From Lachnospiraceae bacterium (GTDB taxonomy: Bacteria > Bacillota > Clostridia > Lachnospirales > Lachnospiraceae): 64,000 bases of DNA. This document shows, in pieces, positions 29,384 through 37,432 of the stretch. A model generated the notes under the pieces. That model was not told the DNA's origin, did no database searches, and was given only the letters and a program-made list of their open reading frames with translations. How positions within the stretch are numbered: the first letter of the stretch is position 1; every line of letters starts with the position of its first letter. The stretch is from the NCBI GenBank assembly GCA_017387565.1, contig JAFOEY010000004.1, positions 90,077 to 154,076 of the forward strand, written 5' to 3'. The translations under genes were made by a program, and so were the position numbers.

Positions 29384-30361
29384 ATGGAAGAAAATAGAAA
29401 TTCCATAAGTAAATTAACATCAAACGACACATATTTTTTAGATTTTAATCAGCGCTATCTGATTGATCAGGAAATATATCGGATTCGAAAACACGGGCAC
29501 AACGATTATCCGGTCGACTTTTATCGTCTGGATGCCAATGACAGCTTATTGGATATCATTCCCTGGCACTGGCACAAAGAATCCGAACTCGTTTTTGTAA
29601 TAAGCGGTTGCGGTGAATTTCGAATCAGTGAAGAATCCTTTTTCATCCATAAAGGTCAGGCTCTTTTTATAAATTCCCAGGCAATGCACTCCTTCTCTAT
29701 TGCTCCCGATAATAAATGTTGTTCTTTTATTGATATTGTTTTTCATCCCGGCTATCTTATTCCACAATCACAATCTTCGCTATTTACCAAATATATCTCT
29801 CCAATCATAAATGCCACAAACTTACGTGGGTATATTTTGTCAGAAGAGGAGCTAAAGAACGCCACTTCAAATCTGCAGATTTCAGATATTTTTGAAATGA
29901 ATATAAATGAAACCGCCGGTTATGAACTTCTTACAAGAGAATTCATCATACGCATCTGGCTTCATGTATTAGAAAAAACAAAAATAAACCAACAATATCT
30001 GAGTAATGGAAAAAAAGCCAAATTCCCACTTGATGAACAGCGTGCCAAAGAAGCCATCCAGTATATTGAAAATCACTATATGGAAACTATTACTTTAGAT
30101 GATATCGCAGAAAGTATCCATCTGAGTAAAAGTGAATGCTGCCGCTGCATCAAGCGATGCATGAATATGACACCGTTTGAATATTTGTTACAGTTTCGGA
30201 TTCAGAAAGCAGCACAAATTTTATCAAACAGCAAAAGGTCATTGTCCATCGCAGAGTTAGCATCTGCTGTCGGTTTCAATTCCTGCAGTTACTTTAACAA
30301 ACTGTTTCGGAAATATATGGGCTGTACGCCATCACAATACAAAAAAAGAATGCGTGATTAA
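29384..30361 (+). CDS. AraC-family transcriptional regulator
   Basis: 325 residues. The N-terminal ~170 residues form a cupin-like ligand domain (DIIPWHWHKESELVFVISG, then HKGQALFINSQAMHSF), consistent with a small-molecule or sugar sensor. The last ~100 residues are the double HTH of AraC (ITLDDIAESIHLSKSECCRC; IAELASAVGFNSCSYFNKLF). The start at 29384 is chosen because AGAGG lies 8 nt upstream; a longer reading to 29297 would begin inside a repeat element. No adjacent transporter or enzyme in the same direction identifies its target. Its stop overlaps the stop of the convergent gene below. Confidence 0.88.
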   Translation: MEENRNSISKLTSNDTYFLDFNQRYLIDQEIYRIRKHGHNDYPVDFYRLDANDSLLDIIPWHWHKESELVFVISGCGEFRISEESFFIHKGQALFINSQAMHSFSIAPDNKCCSFIDIVFHPGYLIPQSQSSLFTKYISPIINATNLRGYILSEEELKNATSNLQISDIFEMNINETAGYELLTREFIIRIWLHVLEKTKINQQYLSNGKKAKFPLDEQRAKEAIQYIENHYMETITLDDIAESIHLSKSECCRCIKRCMNMTPFEYLLQFRIQKAAQILSNSKRSLSIAELASAVGFNSCSYFNKLFRKYMGCTPSQYKKRMRD

Positions 30362-30648
30362 TGACATCCCGCATTCTTTGCATCTTCAAGCACATCAAAA
30401 GCCTGTCCCTTTGCCCATGGGCTTCCCACATCACAACGACCGTGATGTTGCACTTTGGCACTGGTTCCGGCTTTAAATTCATCCGAAACAATCACATTCA
30501 TCCGGCTGGTTTCCGTCTTACTGAAGTTTTCCAGAATCGCAAGCATATTTTCAATATCTTCTTCGCTCACATCTTCCTGTTTTCTTTTTTCCTCTTCGGC
30601 ATATGCCTCTAAATCAACAATAAATACCGGTTCTTCCTTATTCATCAT
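30358..30648 (-). CDS. Small conserved protein of unknown function
   Basis: 96 residues, acidic N-terminal half (EEEKRKQEDVSEEDIENML). The C-terminal half has a well-formed conserved-looking stretch (KVQHHGRCDVGSPWAKGQAF) with His, Cys, Gly and Trp. No signal peptide or membrane helix. The stop codon overlaps that of the AraC gene across TTAA, tail to tail. The upstream flank contains the 31-bp tandem repeat. I do not recognise the family. Confidence 0.55.
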   Translation of the reverse strand: MMNKEEPVFIVDLEAYAEEEKRKQEDVSEEDIENMLAILENFSKTETSRMNVIVSDEFKAGTSAKVQHHGRCDVGSPWAKGQAFDVLEDAKNAGCH

Positions 30649-30720
30649 AGTTTATTTTTGTAGCAGACTGTATTGTATGTCTTGTCTGCCATGTTCTCCT
30701 TTCCCTTTATTTCGATACCT

Positions 30721-30873
30721 ACAATCTCTTTTACCACGGATTTCTATTTCCACAATCTCTCTTATCGCGGATTTCTATTTCCACAATCGTTTTTCCCATG
30801 GTTTTCTTTTTCCACAAATGTTTTCCCACGGTTTTCTTTTTTCACAATGGCTTTTCTCATACATTTCTATCTC
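30721..30873. repeat. 31-bp tandem repeat, five units
   Basis: Units begin ACAATCTCTTTTACCACGGA (30721), with following starts at 30752, 30783, 30814 and 30844. Each contains CAC/CAT-GG and TTTCTATTTCC- or TTTTCTTTTTCC-like parts. They diverge progressively along the array. It fills the gap between the small unknown gene and the EamA gene. Confidence 0.85.
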
Positions 30874-30928
30874 AAAAACAAATGCGATAAAAAGAAATAC
30901 AATCATTCCAAAAGAAACAACCTGTTTC

Positions 30929-31801
30929 TTATGACGGATGGTTGCGGTATACCCATCGGAACACCGCTGCTCCTATAATAATAACATATCCAAGCAAACT
31001 GTAAATATCCGGAATTTGATTTAAAAATAAAAATCCTAAGATAGCAGCAAACAAAATCTGCGAATAATCATATACCGAAATATCTTTTGCCGGCGCATAC
31101 GTATAAGCCGCCGTTATATTCAACTGCCCGCCCATTGCCGCAAATCCTGCCAAAATCAGAATTAGCCACTGCTTCCACGACATGGGCGTATAATAAAACA
31201 ACATTACCGGCGTAAGCATGAGTGTAGAAAACAGAGAAAAGAAAAAAACAATGACACTTCCCCGTTCTCCCCGATTACCAAGAAGGCGGACAAATGTATA
31301 AGCTACTCCTGCCCCAAGTCCACCCAAAGCTCCAATCAAAGCCGGCACAAAACTCATATGAAGCGACGGTTTCATCACAAATAAAGCGCCGATAAACGCA
31401 ATAATAACGGCTGCCCAGTCTCTCTTACCTGCCCGCTCTTTCAATATAAAGATAGAAAAAATAATGGCAAAAAAGGGCGAAAGCTTGTTTAACATGTTAG
31501 CATCCGCAATATTTAACCGGTCAATTGCATAGAAATTACAAATCAGTCCCGTAAATCCGCATGCGGCACGCAAAAACAAAAACGGCAAACTGCCTTTTTT
31601 TATATGAAATTTTTCTTCTGTTTTTAACAACATAACGGATGCGGCTATCAAAGCAACAATATTCCTGAAAAATGCTTTTTGGAACGAAGGAATATCGCCT
31701 GCAATGCGCACAAAAAAAGTCATCAGCGAAAAGAAAAAAGCCGCAGCAATAATATGAAGGATTCCTTTGGTTTTATCTGTCATTTTGTATTCTCTTTTCA
31801 T
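30929..31801 (-). CDS. EamA-family (DMT superfamily) transporter
   Basis: 290 residues with ten predicted membrane helices in two EamA halves (for example IIAAAFFFSLMTFFVRIAGD, then ANMLNKLSPFFAIIFSIFIL in the first; QLNITAAYTYAPAKDISVYD in the second). This family moves small metabolites such as amino acids, nucleobases or drugs; the substrate cannot be told. Start uncertain: MKREYKMTDK at 31801 or the Met six residues later. A full family B hairpin begins 14 bp upstream of the start, so the promoter must lie in or beyond it. Confidence 0.85.
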   Translation of the reverse strand: MKREYKMTDKTKGILHIIAAAFFFSLMTFFVRIAGDIPSFQKAFFRNIVALIAASVMLLKTEEKFHIKKGSLPFLFLRAACGFTGLICNFYAIDRLNIADANMLNKLSPFFAIIFSIFILKERAGKRDWAAVIIAFIGALFVMKPSLHMSFVPALIGALGGLGAGVAYTFVRLLGNRGERGSVIVFFFSLFSTLMLTPVMLFYYTPMSWKQWLILILAGFAAMGGQLNITAAYTYAPAKDISVYDYSQILFAAILGFLFLNQIPDIYSLLGYVIIIGAAVFRWVYRNHPS

Positions 31802-31814
31802 CTTATTTTTAATT

Positions 31815-32050
31815 CCCTTTTCAAATCTATGTTCCCATTATATATCTTTATCGCCTCGTACTTCGGTTTCTAGTCTTTCTAAGCGCCATGCTCACAAAAT
31901 ATTCTTAAATGACCGGTTTCAAAACTCAGACTTCGTCTTCAGACAGATGAAACCGGTCATTATTTTGTTCGCTTATGGCGCTAAGAAAGACACGAAACCT
32001 CGTAAAAGCCGGCGACAAAGATATATAATGGGAACGCAAATCCAGAAAGG
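31815..32050. repeat. Family B long-hairpin element, full copy 1
   Basis: 236 bp with ends CCCTTTTCAAATCTATGTTCCC-like and GGGAACGCAAATCCAGAAAGG-like. Arms of about 90 nt pair almost throughout: ATTATATATCTTT with AAAGATATATAAT, TCTTTCTAAGCGCCAT with ATGGCGCTAAGAAAGA, and AAATGACCGGTTTCA with TGAAACCGGTCATT. The loop is about 25 nt around CTCAGACTTCGTCTTC. It is non-coding and fills most of the gap between the divergent EamA and degV genes. Confidence 0.92.
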
Positions 32051-32200
32051 AAAATTTTTAATATCTTTCAAACATAAACAATCATTTTCCTTGTGCCATT
32101 ATAACACTTTTGATAAAATAATCCATAGAATTACGGAAGTTACCTGATAACGAAGCAATTCGCACGGCACATTACCAAAGAAAAAACAGAAAGGACAAAT

Positions 32201-32215
32201 ATGTCGGAACAATGA
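32201..32215 (+). promoter_or_regulatory. Four-codon leader ORF overlapping the degV start
   Basis: GAAAGGA at 32189-32195 is spaced 5 nt from ATG TCG GAA CAA TGA, encoding MSEQ. The TGA overlaps the degV ATG (ATGA). The ribosome binding site is too far (16 nt) from degV itself, so degV is probably translated by coupling or re-initiation. Confidence 0.55.
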
Positions 32216-33081
32216 GAGAATTTATTATTTCAACAGAAACAAACTGTGATCTTTCGGCAGAATTTATCAAAACAAACAAGATCTGCGTCATCCCCCATTA
32301 CTATACGGTTGATGAGGAAGTTTACGGTGCCGGAAAAGAACTGACAAACAAAGAATTTTATGACAAAATGCGCGACAAGCATAAAGTCGGCACCATGGCC
32401 AGCAATCCTGCTGTCATTGAGGAGATGTTTACGGCAATTGCCAAAGAAGAAAAAGACATTATCCATATCAGCTTTTCTTCCGCATTAAGCGGCGGCTGTG
32501 GCAATGTACAGATGGTTTCCAACCAGATTATGGAAGCTTATCCGGATATGAAAATTATAGTCATTGATACACTGGCAGCATCCCTTGGCGAAGGTATTAT
32601 GATTAAAAAAGCTTTGGAGCTGAAAGCAGAAGGTAAAACCATCGACGAAACCGTTTCCATTATTCAGGATTTATGTCCTCATCTTAATACGCTGTTTACC
32701 GTTGATGATTTAGATTATTTGTATCGTGGCGGACGTCTTTCAAAAACGACTGCCATCGTCGGTTCACTGGTTAACATAAAACCACTTTTGAAAATCAACG
32801 AAGAAGGAAAACTGGTTGCCCATTCCAAAGTCAGAGGGCGAAACAAATCCATTCAGACGTTAGTCTCCCTAATGGAAGAACAAATCGGTTCCTACAAAGA
32901 CAAACAGCTTGAAATCGGAATTATCCACGGTGACTGCGAAAACGATGCCTTAACATTAAAAAAACTGGTGGAAGAAAAATTCGGCTATACCAATTTCATG
33001 ATTGAGCCAATCGGTCCCAGTATTGGTGCACATTCCGGACCCGGAACATTAGGCATTGTCTTTTTAGGAGAACATCGTTAA
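32212..33081 (+). CDS. DegV family fatty-acid-binding protein
   Basis: 289 residues of the DegV fold, whose members bind fatty acids, and in Firmicutes such proteins can present them to a fatty acid kinase (FakB role). It starts REFIISTETNCDLSAEFIKT, with the two-lobe layout and a YRGGRLSKTTAIVGSLVNIK motif for the ligand pocket and IGAHSGPGTLGIVFLG at the end. The start at 32212 sits within a short leader ORF's stop. There is no FakA in the window. It is the first of two plus-strand genes, followed by a gap of ~180 bp. Confidence 0.9.
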   Translation: MREFIISTETNCDLSAEFIKTNKICVIPHYYTVDEEVYGAGKELTNKEFYDKMRDKHKVGTMASNPAVIEEMFTAIAKEEKDIIHISFSSALSGGCGNVQMVSNQIMEAYPDMKIIVIDTLAASLGEGIMIKKALELKAEGKTIDETVSIIQDLCPHLNTLFTVDDLDYLYRGGRLSKTTAIVGSLVNIKPLLKINEEGKLVAHSKVRGRNKSIQTLVSLMEEQIGSYKDKQLEIGIIHGDCENDALTLKKLVEEKFGYTNFMIEPIGPSIGAHSGPGTLGIVFLGEHR

Positions 33082-33142
33082 TAAAGATTAGTGTGGTACA
33101 AATGTATTAAATTTAGTACGTTTTAACAGCACTGCAGATGTT

Positions 33143-33161
33143 GATAAAGATAATCATTATC
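33143..33161 (+). promoter_or_regulatory. Fur box upstream of the hydrogenase-MCP gene
   Basis: GATAAAGATAATCATTATC matches the classical 19-bp Fur consensus (GATAATGATAATCATTATC) at 18 of 19 positions, followed by a further AATAATGATG. It is ~100 bp upstream of the start codon. It suggests control by a Fur-type metalloregulator. Confidence 0.75.
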
Positions 33162-33259
33162 AGTATAATAATGATGTAGTATAAATCGACGTCATATCCG
33201 TCAATTTGTATTACCTTGTAAAAGGAAAAAATATAATATGCTATATGGGGGATATACAT

Positions 33260-35218
33260 ATGAAAAAGGAAATCACAACAGGATTAATTCGTACCAACGA
33301 AAACTGTGTAGGTTGTAACAAATGTATCAGTGTCTGCAGCTGTAAAGGCGCGACCATCGCCGACAAAACAGAAGACGGCAGAAATGTTATCCGCGTTGAC
33401 GGAGCCAAATGTGTTGCATGTGGCGCATGCTTTGATTCCTGTGAGCACAATGCCAGAGAATATGTCGACGACACCGAAGCATTCTTTGAAGCATTAAACC
33501 GTGGTGAACGCATTTCCGTATTGATTGCACCGGCCTTTTTAGCAAATTATCCAAAAGAATATGAAAGTGTCCTGGGCGGACTCAAGCAATTAGGTGTCAA
33601 TCGTTTCATCAGCATCTCCTTTGGTGCAGATATTACAACATGGGCCTATTTGAATTATATTAAAAAATACAATTTTCTAGGTGGCATATCCCAGCCATGT
33701 CCGGCTGTTGTCGGTTATATCGAGCACTATATTCCGGAATTACTGCCAAAGCTTTTTCCTGTGCAAAGTCCGCTGATGTGTGGTGCTATCTATGCTAAAA
33801 AATATATGGGTATTACAGATAAATTAGCTTTTATCAGCCCTTGTATTGCCAAGAAAAAAGAAATCGAATCTCCCCGCGGACAAGGTCTGGTCTCTTATAA
33901 CGTCACATTTGATCATTTCATGAAATATGTCAGATCCCACAATATTTCAGGTCCATCCTGCAAGGATGAAATCGAATATGGTCTGGGCTCCATCTACCCC
34001 ACTCCCGGTGGTTTAAAAGAAAATGTCTATTGGTTTTTGGGAGAAGATGCATTTATTCGTCAGGTGGAAGGCGAAAAACATATGTATCATTATCTGGAAG
34101 AAAACAAAAACAAAATTGCGAAAGAACAACTCCCCTATGTTTTTGTGGACGCCTTAAACTGCGCTTCCGGTTGTTTGTACGGAACCGGTGTAGAAGAGGC
34201 AAAAACAAAAACAGATGATGCTTTGATCGAAATGATGCGGATTAAAGAACGCAGTAAAAATAATAAATTATTACATACATGGTCTAAGAAATTAAAACCG
34301 GAGCAACGATTCAAACAATTAAACAAACAGTTTGCCGGTTTAAATCTGGATGATTTTATCTGTACTTATACCGACCGTTCGGCTGAATGCGCTTGGAATG
34401 AACCAAATCAGAAGGAACTGGATGCTATTTTTACAGAAATGAATAAAAATACCAAAGAATCCAGAAAAATCAACTGTTCCTGCTGTGGTTATGATACCTG
34501 TAAGGATATGGCCGTTGCCATTTTTAATGGCTTTAACCACAAAGAAAACTGTATTCACTTTGTCAAGAGTCAGGTGGAAATTGAAAAGGAAACCGCATCC
34601 AGTCTGGCAGTTCAGGTTGAACAGGAGAAAGATATTGTTGTGGCACAACAACAAAATATCATTGATACCATTTCCCGGATTAACAGCCAGTTTGAAAACG
34701 TTCATCGAGCTGTCGATGAACTGGCAAACGGAAACAACAACAATTCCAAAGAATGTGCCGATATTGCCAAGCATATGAATCATGTCAGTGATTTCTGCCG
34801 TCAGCTAAGTATTTCGATGAATGAAATCAATGATTTTGTAACAGAACTAACCGAAAACAATGCAGAGGTCGTTTCCATTGCCTCTCAGACCAATTTACTG
34901 GCATTAAATGCATCCATTGAAGCAGCGCGTGCCGGTGAAGCCGGACGGGGTTTTGCGGTTGTTGCGGATCAAATCAACAAACTTGCTGCCAATTCCCGTG
35001 AGACATCCACAAAGAGCGGCATCACACAGGAAAAAATCCTGGCATCCGTTACAAAGCTTTTAGAAGATTCAGACAATTTACTAAAAACAATTACGGACGT
35101 AGACAGTCGAACCAAAAATCTGGCATCCGTTGCAGAATCCATTGCCGAATCGGCTGAAATGATTCGCACCTCTACCGATGAAGTTAAGCACAACTTAGAA
35201 AAACTGGCAGAAAACTAA
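33260..35218 (+). CDS. [FeFe]-hydrogenase-like sensor fused to an MCP signalling domain
   Basis: 652 residues, soluble. Two 4Fe-4S sites ([11 protein letters not shown] ~14; [11 protein letters not shown] ~53). The hydrogenase large-subunit domain (~80-330) keeps the H-cluster cysteines in altered motifs: SQPCPAV, SPCIAKK and NCASGC. A four-cysteine FeS domain (CSCCGYDTC ~405) and an MCP signalling coiled coil ([20 protein letters not shown] ~540) follow. Group C/D sensory hydrogenases with other outputs are known. I infer a cytosolic redox or H2 sensor that signals to CheA. The start at 33260 follows GGGGGA; a Fur box lies upstream. The gene ends in a terminator. Confidence 0.9.
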
Positions 35219-35232
35219 TTGTTTTCTGCCAG
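35204..35232 (+). terminator. Terminator overlapping the hydrogenase-MCP stop codon
   Basis: CTGGCAGAAAAC / GTTTTCTGCCAG perfect stem with a 5-nt loop containing the TAA stop region. It is followed by a T-rich tail after TGTGC. It may serve both convergent genes. Confidence 0.7.
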
Positions 35233-35352
35233 TGTGCTTTTCCTGCCATCATTTTTTCTTTATTACATCTACTGCATTTTGATTTGCATCTTTAACATTT
35301 CATTACACTGTCTTGTGTATTTTAATTTGCATATTATATTTCTTTATGCCAT

Positions 35353-36603
35353 CTAACACATCCTTACAACAACTGTCACCTTAAATTCATTTTCTTTTTG
35401 ATTGACAAATATATCACCGTTCATATTTGTCATTAACTGCCTGCATATGTATAGTCCCAATCCGCTTCCCGGCTTATTTTGGACATTGGAGCCTCGGTAA
35501 AAGCTGTCAAAGACTTTCATGATTTCCTCTGCCATCATACCTTCTCCGGTGTTGGAAACCATGATCAGACAACACCCTTGATCTCTTTCAAATGAAATGG
35601 TAATACGCTCACCATCTCCATATTTCAAGGCATTTTCCATGATATTTTGCAAAACTTCCAAAATTCTGTCTTCATCACCTTTTAGCAGACAGTTTTTGTA
35701 CTCCTGTATCTCTAATTTTGTTTTATGTAAACTAGTTTTATTTTCATATGTATCACGAAGTCTTTCGATAACATCAGCCAAATAGAAATCTTCTTCTTTC
35801 ACACTCAAGTCCAGAAATTCTTCTCTGGATGCAGAAACAATATCCGTCACATACTTTTCAATCTCATCTACTTTGTCATTGATGGTAACAGCCGCCTGCA
35901 TCCGCCGTTCTTCATCTTTATACAGGTTTTTGGACAATGCCTGGGCATTCAGCTTAATAACCGAAAGAGGCGTTTTGATATCATGTGTCAATGACAACAA
36001 AAGCAATTTCTTATCCCGGTGCATGGAAAGTTCCTTTTGCCTGCGATTCTCCAGATTTTCTCGGAGCATATTGATTCCCCAGATAAAACGACCGAAATAT
36101 TTTGTCTGTTCTTCCGGAATCTCTATTGCTAAATTTCCCTTTGCTAACTCATACGGAATTTGTTCCAATTCGTGAAATGGTCTGATGATTTTGTTATCCA
36201 TATAAAACAACACTATCAAAACCAACACCATGGCTATAATCATCACCATGTTACAGATTACTACTGTTTTTTTCATGTCATTCTTTCCCATATCATATTC
36301 AAACCGATACAACGAACCGTTAATTTCACGAATACAATAGTCATATTTACCTGTTGAAGTAATCTCCTCTTCACTCTCGCAATGTACGATTCTTTTGACA
36401 TAGTTACAGGTAGCTAACAGACTTTGTACATCCAATTCCATATCATGATTCTTTTCCATTTCTTTTTCCAAACGGAAGATTTCGACCATATAAGGTCTGC
36501 TGTCTTCACGATTTTGCTTTGAAAAAAGAAATATATTCATAACGGAAATGATTACCAGCATAATGAAAATTATGAAGACCGATTTTTTTCTATAACTCTG
36601 CAA
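35353..36603 (-). CDS. Sensor histidine kinase
   Basis: 416 residues. TM1 at ~8-28, a short extracellular segment (~29-110), TM2 at ~115-140, HAMP region (IIRPFHELEQIPYELAKGNL), HisKA with LSLTHDIKTPLSVIKLNAQ (His ~210; the H-box reads THDIKTPL) and an ATPase with GDGERITISFERD, VSNTGEGM and GSGLGLYICRQLM. It ends an apparent operon: permease, ATPase, response regulator, kinase. Such a set typically senses an antimicrobial or envelope insult and works on its own transporter, which is inference here. Confidence 0.92.
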   Translation of the reverse strand: MQSYRKKSVFIIFIMLVIISVMNIFLFSKQNREDSRPYMVEIFRLEKEMEKNHDMELDVQSLLATCNYVKRIVHCESEEEITSTGKYDYCIREINGSLYRFEYDMGKNDMKKTVVICNMVMIIAMVLVLIVLFYMDNKIIRPFHELEQIPYELAKGNLAIEIPEEQTKYFGRFIWGINMLRENLENRRQKELSMHRDKKLLLLSLTHDIKTPLSVIKLNAQALSKNLYKDEERRMQAAVTINDKVDEIEKYVTDIVSASREEFLDLSVKEEDFYLADVIERLRDTYENKTSLHKTKLEIQEYKNCLLKGDEDRILEVLQNIMENALKYGDGERITISFERDQGCCLIMVSNTGEGMMAEEIMKVFDSFYRGSNVQNKPGSGLGLYICRQLMTNMNGDIFVNQKENEFKVTVVVRMC

Positions 36604-36689
36604 CTGATTCTCCTATCGTATTTTTTTCTTTATACTTTCATATTTATCTTGCTCAAAACGCCTTTACATTAGCCATTTATACAATGGTT

Positions 36690-36739
36690 AACTCCTTGTT
36701 TTCTTCAATTGTGTTCCCACGAAATTGAAAAAAGGAGTT
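36690..36739. terminator. Imperfect hairpin between regulator and kinase genes
   Basis: AACTCCTTGTTTTCTTCAATT pairs with AATTGAAAAAAGGAGTT. The T-run follows only in the plus direction, so its use as a terminator for the minus-strand operon is uncertain. It could be a pausing or processing site within the operon. Confidence 0.4.
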
Positions 36740-36760
36740 TTTATTGATTTTTATTGTTTT

Positions 36761-37432
36761 CTAAGGCACAAATTTGTATCCGACACCCCAGACCGTCTGA
36801 AAATGCTGAGGGTTCTTAGGATCTTCTTCAAATTTAGAGCGCAACCACTTAATATGAACCGTCAACGTCTGTTGCTCAGATTCGCTGTCCATTCCCCAAA
36901 TTTCACGGAACAGATAGTCTTTATCCATGACTTTTCCCGGATTCTCCATCAACAAAAGCAACAACTCATATTCTTTAATTGTAACATCAACCTTCGTCCC
37001 TTTATAGTATACGGCTTTACCCTGTTTATCAATCTTAATATCTCCATAGCAAAGTTCATCCATGCCATATCTTCTTTTAAAAATACCATCGATTTTAGCA
37101 AGCAAAATATCAATATCATAGGGCTTTTCAATGTAATCATCCGCACCATTCAGAATACCGTTCAATTTATCTTCTTTTGTATCTTTTGCAGAAACAATGA
37201 TGACCGGCGTATTGCTTTCCTTGCGGATTTTATTCAGGATTACAAATCCGTCTTTTCCCGGCAGCATAATATCCAATATGACCAGTCTTGCCCCATATTT
37301 TTCAAAAAGACTGACTGCTTTTATCCCATCATTGGCAATTGTTACAATATATCCCTTATCCTTTAAAAAATCTGCCAAAAGAGTCGCGATATCCTTATCA
37401 TCTTCTACAATTAAAATATCTGTTTCCGTCAT
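36761..37432 (-). CDS. OmpR/PhoB-family response regulator
   Basis: 223 residues. The receiver (ILIVEDDKDIATLLADFL; LVILDIMLPGKDGFVIL with the phospho-Asp; SAKDTKED; Lys in YIEKPYD) and the winged-helix DNA-binding domain (~125-223, EYELLLLLMENPGKVMDKDY, ending VWGVGYKFVP) are complete. Start MTETDILIVE at 37432 is set by GAGGAAAAG. It sits between the ABC ATPase gene and the kinase gene. Partner: the kinase at 35353-36603. Confidence 0.94.
   Translation of the reverse strand: MTETDILIVEDDKDIATLLADFLKDKGYIVTIANDGIKAVSLFEKYGARLVILDIMLPGKDGFVILNKIRKESNTPVIIVSAKDTKEDKLNGILNGADDYIEKPYDIDILLAKIDGIFKRRYGMDELCYGDIKIDKQGKAVYYKGTKVDVTIKEYELLLLLMENPGKVMDKDYLFREIWGMDSESEQQTLTVHIKWLRSKFEEDPKNPQHFQTVWGVGYKFVP

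Follow-up and report, generated by a model that had tools for sequence, protein, structure and literature searches.

The gene described here encodes a chemotaxis-type receptor built on an [FeFe]-hydrogenase domain in a member of the Lachnospiraceae, and the main new point is one of maturation: the receptor is present, and the maturases HydF and HydG are not found in the genome or the genus. HydE, HydF and HydG are thought to be necessary to build the hydrogen-binding cofactor, and because HydF and HydG were not detected in the genome the receptor may sense something other than hydrogen. We propose, with as much doubt as confidence, that the protein (P0001) is a soluble cytoplasmic receptor of the C2 type, formerly an H2 sensor and now a redox chemoreceptor whose iron-sulfur clusters are cubes only. 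The gene lies in a window of 64,000 nucleotides (the whole stretch of DNA that was analysed), with the following features:

33141 to 33169, + strand: putative sigma-70-type promoter, TTGATA-17-TATAAT (11 of 12 matches)
33143 to 33161, + strand: Fur-type box, GATAAAGATAATCATTATC (18 of 19 matches to the 19-bp Fur consensus)
33260 to 35218, + strand: gene of P0001, a ferredoxin - H-domain - FeS - MCP protein of 652 aa
33302 to 33457, + strand: two [4Fe-4S] ferredoxin motifs (residues 15-66)
33512 to 34183, + strand: [FeFe]-hydrogenase H-domain (Pfam Fe_hyd_lg_C, residues 85-308, E 9.3e-29)
34466 to 34555, + strand: FeS module PF04060 (residues 403-432), C406-x2-C409-x4-C414-x16-C431
34814 to 35209, + strand: MCP signalling hairpin (Pfam MCPsignal, residues 519-650, E 1.4e-22)
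35203 to 35233, + strand: intrinsic-terminator-like stem of 13 pairs

The likely start is the ATG at 33260, which has GGGGG 8 nt before it, and the frame runs to 35218 (as read from the sequence); the sequence-only reading of this DNA had given the same end and had placed the start at 33143, where the Fur-type box begins. It had described a single fusion protein, which is real: the ferredoxin motifs (Fer4 at residues 45-66, Fer4_7 at 15-65), the H-domain, the four-Cys FeS module and the MCP hairpin were all found by Pfam, and the motifs it had singled out, QPCPAV, SPCIAKK and NCASGC, are located at residues 145-150, 193-199 and 300-305. The ferredoxin cysteines are C16, C19, C22, C26 and C51, C54, C57, C61, the H-cluster ligand cysteines are C147, C195, C301 and C305, and the family-typical C174 is also present. 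Promoter-like and terminator-like signals appear to bound a single transcription unit which, given the stem at 35203-35233, looks monocistronic. A DegV protein is encoded upstream of the gene and a histidine kinase downstream on the opposite strand, and Rfam searches returned nothing at gathering scores across positions 30000-37000 of the window.

The earlier reading had made its chemotaxis output depend on CheA and CheW elsewhere in the genome, and both are encoded, together with CheC and CheD, on contig C16, with a CheW-receiver (CheV-like) protein on C34. The tip of the hairpin is conserved in an alignment of 20 sequences, so that P0001 has both marks of an MCP chemoreceptor, a conserved tip and CheA/CheW in the genome, and a CheA/CheW partner is therefore available. 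No transmembrane segment is evident in P0001 (the top 19-residue Kyte-Doolittle mean is 1.05), and with the domains found and CheA/CheW encoded, the idea of a soluble chemoreceptor with a hydrogenase-derived sensor is upheld.

In its architecture P0001 fits [FeFe] group C2 of HydDB, an assignment made from domain architecture and our own tree. Group C2 is entered there as "Chemotactic (putative)" with H2 sensing proposed (PMC5037454), and P0001 shares with it the link between a hydrogenase and MCP output, the H-domain and MCP signalling domain being found together by Pfam. As far as the C2 entry itself goes, it is silent on whether members are fusions; P0001 is one fusion, and differs from the entry in a genus without detected HydG or HydF and in a private Fur-type box. 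The sequence-only reading had called the sensory hydrogenases of groups C and D established, and the MCP-linked form, which it had treated as inference, is likewise already listed, as C2. In a tree of 51 sequences (a quick method with no bootstrap, one long branch, L001, and 32 family sequences included), the C2 family forms one clade (SH-aLRT 99), apart from a HydS-like, mostly PAS-bearing clade (98) and a group-D-like clade (100). C2 was also one of two main subgroups among the calls that were discarded on checking in a survey of Clostridium acetogens, in the part of that survey drawn on here (PMC9431212).

The nearest characterized systems are HydS proteins. TamHydS of Thermoanaerobacter mathranii (group D / M2e) has, like P0001, two [4Fe-4S] clusters, the H-domain and a Cx2Cx4Cx16C module, a spacing that matches group C/D HydS (PMC8163306), and in both proteins Ser stands at the M353 position, Leu at M497 and Cys299 is lost; as described in the portions of three articles that we cite, TamHydS has no PAS or MCP output, unlike P0001 (PMC8163306, PMC10407848, PMC13104023). 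The group D signature of M353 to Ser/Thr with a C-terminal Cx2Cx4Cx16C is accordingly found in P0001 (S193; C406/C409/C414/C431). Group C HydS with PAS (M2f; TmHydS), a proposed sensor, has the same N-terminal, H-domain and FeS modules. The HydS-like relatives L033-L039 carry PAS in 5 of 7 cases (Pfam E<=1e-5; none in L034 and L037) and, in contrast to the C2 family, form a separate clade with Gly at M353 in 7/7; all seven have Cys at the C299 position, where TmHydS has Ala (PMC10407848, in the part consulted). The ferredoxin and H-domain module is joined in other relatives to HisKA/HATPase (L022), HisKA/HATPase plus receiver (L027) and GGDEF (L032) outputs, and one C2 receptor (L138:5884-8355, an 823-aa frame) has an additional C-terminal receiver after the MCP hairpin.

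The genome is 2.9 Mb in size and 99.54% complete, and searches of it with the HydG model gave no match at E<=1e-3, while the HydF model gave 14 matches, all to the N-terminal GTPase part, the best at 95.6 bits against a cut-off of 325.55. HydE was judged in this genome solely via the HydG model, which also picks up HydE: three HydE proteins reach 51-57 bits against it, and the HydG search would therefore probably reveal HydE. Maturase genes, expected in the genome of an [FeFe] hydrogenase, were in this sense not found (HydG and HydF; HydE by cross-detection). Among nine genomes of the genus (86-100% complete; five of them, our own included, 97-100%), Fe_hyd_lg_C was found in 9/9, HydG over the cut-off in 0/9 (G008 has one match below it, 81.5 bits) and HydF at E<=1e-60 in 0/9; since these five genomes too yielded neither HydG nor HydF at those thresholds, an assembly gap is unlikely. 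Catalytic hydrogenases of the genus also retain TSCCP, PC..K and CPGGC: these motifs are intact in the group B enzymes (8 genomes examined) and in the group A-rubrerythrin enzymes of G000 and G008, although HydG over the cut-off and HydF were found in 0/9 genomes (L001 and L002 are among these loci). Hydrogenases in genomes without detected maturases have been met before: a ProPhylo study noted a few species in which hydrogenase occurs with none of the three (PMC3226654), and hydG was undetected in 5/8 Clostridium acetogens (PMC9431212); the relevant parts of these two papers do not treat sensory or MCP-linked forms without maturases.

Full-length orthologs at 50-96% identity were found across 79 genomes (our own included). 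A scan of the collection gave at least 593 pattern matches, 581 of which encode a relative, and we took the best 80 of these at least 581 loci, 57-69% identical and mostly titled Lachnospiraceae or other Clostridia, with one Mucispirillum. Among 298 family genomes at least 90% complete (C2-like match at E<=1e-60; HydF as the maturase searched), a C2-like gene occurs in 59 and HydF in 164; the two coincide in 30, which leaves 29 C2 carriers without HydF. An anticorrelation between C2 and maturases appeared in the 79 genomes, where HydF or HydG was found in 5/23 against 33/56 (p 0.003), the 23 C2 genomes being hand-picked (matches at E<=1e-60 over the H-domain), and was dropped when the 298 genomes gave HydF in 30/59 against 134/239 (Fisher p 0.56). 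On one FastTree tree of 77 sequences HydF status has to switch at least 24 times, and the C2 gene and HydF therefore look uncoupled.

Of the best 80 of at least 581 loci, 7/80 have hydG or hydF within the flanking sequence retrieved (up to 6 kb), which indicates that the C2 family pairs with a full H-cluster in places. Five of the seven have hydG or hydF next to C2 or to its neighbour hydE, in the same orientation: L112 and L135 show the co-directional series C2, hydE, hydG, hydF (hydE by TIGR03956 in both) and L121 the series hydG, hydF, C2; in L125 hydG starts 22 nt after C2 and in L138 C2 is followed by hydG, with hydE/hydF on the opposite strand. In L120 and L096 the maturase genes are on the opposite strand to C2. 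The seven loci compare with about 0.2 expected (785 kb of flank; about 55% HydF-positive genomes of about 3 Mb), and the ancestral partner of the C2 receptor was therefore very probably a complete H-cluster. The paradox is that one and the same receptor accompanies hydE, hydG and hydF in certain relatives and is maintained in others that have no HydF. At E<=1e-20, the same flanks (many of which end at contig ends, 41/80 being nearly full 6 kb) contain no relatives of the DegV, AraC or DMT transporter proteins of the window, of CheA or of the genome's two other hydrogenases; the neighbouring kinase has three weak flank matches at 31-32% identity.

The eight ferredoxin cysteines, C147, C195, C301, C305, C174 and C406/C409/C414/C431 are invariant in alignments of 20 and 37 sequences. 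A larger set covers 77 sequences of 71 genomes (33 sequences from HydF-positive and 44 from HydF-negative genomes); there the four cubane Cys ligands of an [FeFe] hydrogenase, C147, C195, C301 and C305, are present in 77/77, as in P0001, while S193 (M353 position) is kept in 72 and K198 in 73 (41/44 HydF-negative and 32/33 HydF-positive). K198 stands at the position of CpI K358, the lysine that touches a cyanide of the diiron subsite. C174 (33779-33781, in SPMMC) is kept in 74/77 of the C2 family; one HydS-like protein, L037, has Cys there, and none of the proteins of groups A and B or of the D-like kind in the comparison does.

The proton relay of TamHydS includes A137, S249, E252 and E289, and E252 variants lose H2 oxidation, according to the sections of PMC10407848 cited here. 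These four residues align to P146, P249, L252 and D297 of P0001 by way of group-D-like stand-ins (L145-L153, named by motif), a placement made by alignment; the stand-ins have Glu at the E252 position in 8/9 and at E289 in 9/9, and Ser/Thr at S249 in 5/9. The group D proton path E252-E289-S249-D265 is thus departed from in P0001 at E252, E289 and S249 (L252, D297, P249). Across the 77 C2 sequences P146 is kept in 74, P249 in 73, L252 in 73 and D297 in 74, and the family pocket therefore appears to be fixed in a state without known proton relays. Between this genome (G000) and G004, in neither of which maturases were detected, the whole gene has a dN/dS of 0.065, the H-domain one of 0.059 and the MCP part one of 0.062 (one genome pair, simple counting method), so the H-domain is under purifying selection between two genomes without detected maturases. 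The ligand and pocket positions examined show no clear difference between the HydF-positive and HydF-negative sets of the 77 sequences, and relaxed constraint at diiron-contact positions in HydF-negative genomes was sought and not clearly seen.

We propose the following mechanism for a cube-only redox chemoreceptor. Without HydE, HydF and HydG the H site would hold a cysteine-ligated [4Fe-4S] cube alone, and P0001 would carry four cubes in all, without a diiron subsite. Electrons would pass between the ferredoxin part and the low-potential redox pool of the cell, the oxidation state or integrity of the cubes would alter the H-domain and FeS neck, and this change would alter the coiled-coil hairpin and hence CheA activity, so that the cell would swim by its own redox state (energy taxis) and not by H2. 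The lineage probably goes back to a genuine H2-sensing ancestor that retained its maturases. We favour this reading over an H2 sensor because TamHydS produced in the absence of HydEFG is a soluble apo-protein, binding 16.1 Fe after reconstitution (PMC8163306, as excerpted), and because the pocket appears to lack the known relays; the "repurposed hydrogenase" of the sequence-only reading accords with the missing maturases. To be weighed against it are the hydG or hydF genes in the flanks of 7/80 loci, the retention of K198, the want of clear relaxation at diiron-contact positions, which loss of the diiron unit would lead one to expect, and the intact catalytic hydrogenases of the genus.

The first alternative, which we hold possible though clearly less probable, is that P0001 is a true H2 sensor in which H2 tunes CheA, its full H-cluster being supplied by maturases that the assembly misses or that have diverged beyond detection, or by another route. 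All four H-cluster ligands and nearly always K198 are conserved, the C2-hydE-hydG-hydF, hydG-hydF-C2 and C2-hydG gene runs described above speak for it, and so do the motifs retained in the genus group A/B hydrogenases. Group D HydS, whose pocket is partly similar, turns over H2 slowly (PMC8163306, PMC10407848, in the parts cited); against this, loss of E252 abolishes H2 oxidation by TamHydS (PMC10407848, likewise in part), and the aligned residue of P0001 is Leu. With relay positions occupied by Pro, Pro and Leu, and neither HydG nor HydF detected in this genome or its genus (0/9 at the thresholds given), the H2 sensor put forward earlier becomes doubtful. A maturase-free route to a bacterial H-cluster is not known, which also counts against it, and that Lachnospiraceae should have an unrecognised HydEFG-independent route to the H-cluster seems to us quite improbable.

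We consider it unlikely, but worth setting out, that P0001 is an iron or oxidant sensor, in which labile cubes, induced under iron limitation through Fur, would signal O2, NO or a lack of iron to the flagella. Its chief support is the near-perfect Fur-type box, which sits inside the promoter core, between TTGATA and TATAAT, and is overlapped by 7-1-7 motifs at 33142 (12/14) and 33148 (13/14). The box scores 18/19 against a best of 16 across 3000 Markov-1 shuffles of the 300-bp upstream region, and, its own reverse and overlapping readings set aside, it is the sole place in the genome with one mismatch, three other places having 3 mismatches. Against the iron sensor, the 96% ortholog keeps the promoter and lacks the box (the closest ortholog, L011, reads TTGATA-17-TAAAAT), and 78 other upstream regions of C2 relatives reach at best 15/19, with 77 of the 78 at 13 or below. 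Also against it, the genome's feoAB, the iron genes checked for a shared Fur operator, have no Fur-type box within 7 kb around them (best 11/14 and 13/19) and are divergent to a DtxR/MntR-type repressor gene. The upstream region of feoAB (L224:3372-3724) contains the inverted repeats GTTAGT..ACTAAC and CAGTTAGTT..AACTAACTG. Three FUR-family proteins of the genome score over the cut-off; two score best as PerR in NCBIfam, yet under its cut-offs, and their genes adjoin those for desulfoferrodoxin and a glutamate-synthase/rubrerythrin fusion, with Per-box-like sites (12/14) near the starts, and the third, with a partial FUR match only, is encoded downstream of feoB, which lends the iron sensor some support. 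So does feoB in the fetched C2 flank of L140, L090, L119 and L102 (4/80 of the best 80 of at least 581 relatives).

A word with 3 mismatches to the Fur consensus, GATATTGATAATCTTTATA, recurs in 4/5 genus genomes searched; in both genomes looked at, it lies inside recA by translation and is therefore uninformative about Fur. A second Fur-like site (L064:1500-1519, at G000:C18:61900) scores 16/19, or 13/14 in 7-1-7 form, and lies in a gap between frames, ahead of the one (L064:1836-2249) for a small cysteine-rich protein with no Pfam match at E<=1e-5. Judged against orthologs and feoAB, the box of GATAAAGATAATCATTATC appears private to the C2 gene of this species and is probably a functional yet species-specific operator; of the Fur link first proposed, the sequence match stands, and conservation in any relative examined or a counterpart at feoAB does not. 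The last alternative, a relic H2 sensor decaying after maturase loss, would fit a genus in which maturases are not found, but is scarcely credible with a whole-gene dN/dS of 0.065, all ligand cysteines kept and promoter-like and terminator-like signals intact.

In the open-licence literature we found no title or abstract that deals with C2 receptors of genomes lacking maturases. A gut hydrogenase study reports group C genes as putative sensors, in the passages cited, and neither "HydEFG" nor "HydG" occurs anywhere in its main text (PMC12578642). For gut Lachnospiraceae the present case is a caution against reading hydrogenase genes as H2 metabolism unless the maturases are checked. H2 sensing has been proposed for sensory [FeFe] hydrogenases. 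The C2 family offers a natural contrast between receptors beside hydE, hydG and hydF and receptors in genomes without HydF, and comparison of one such pair would tell if signalling depends on the H-cluster and if an FeFe-hydrogenase fold can act as a plain iron-sulfur sensor.
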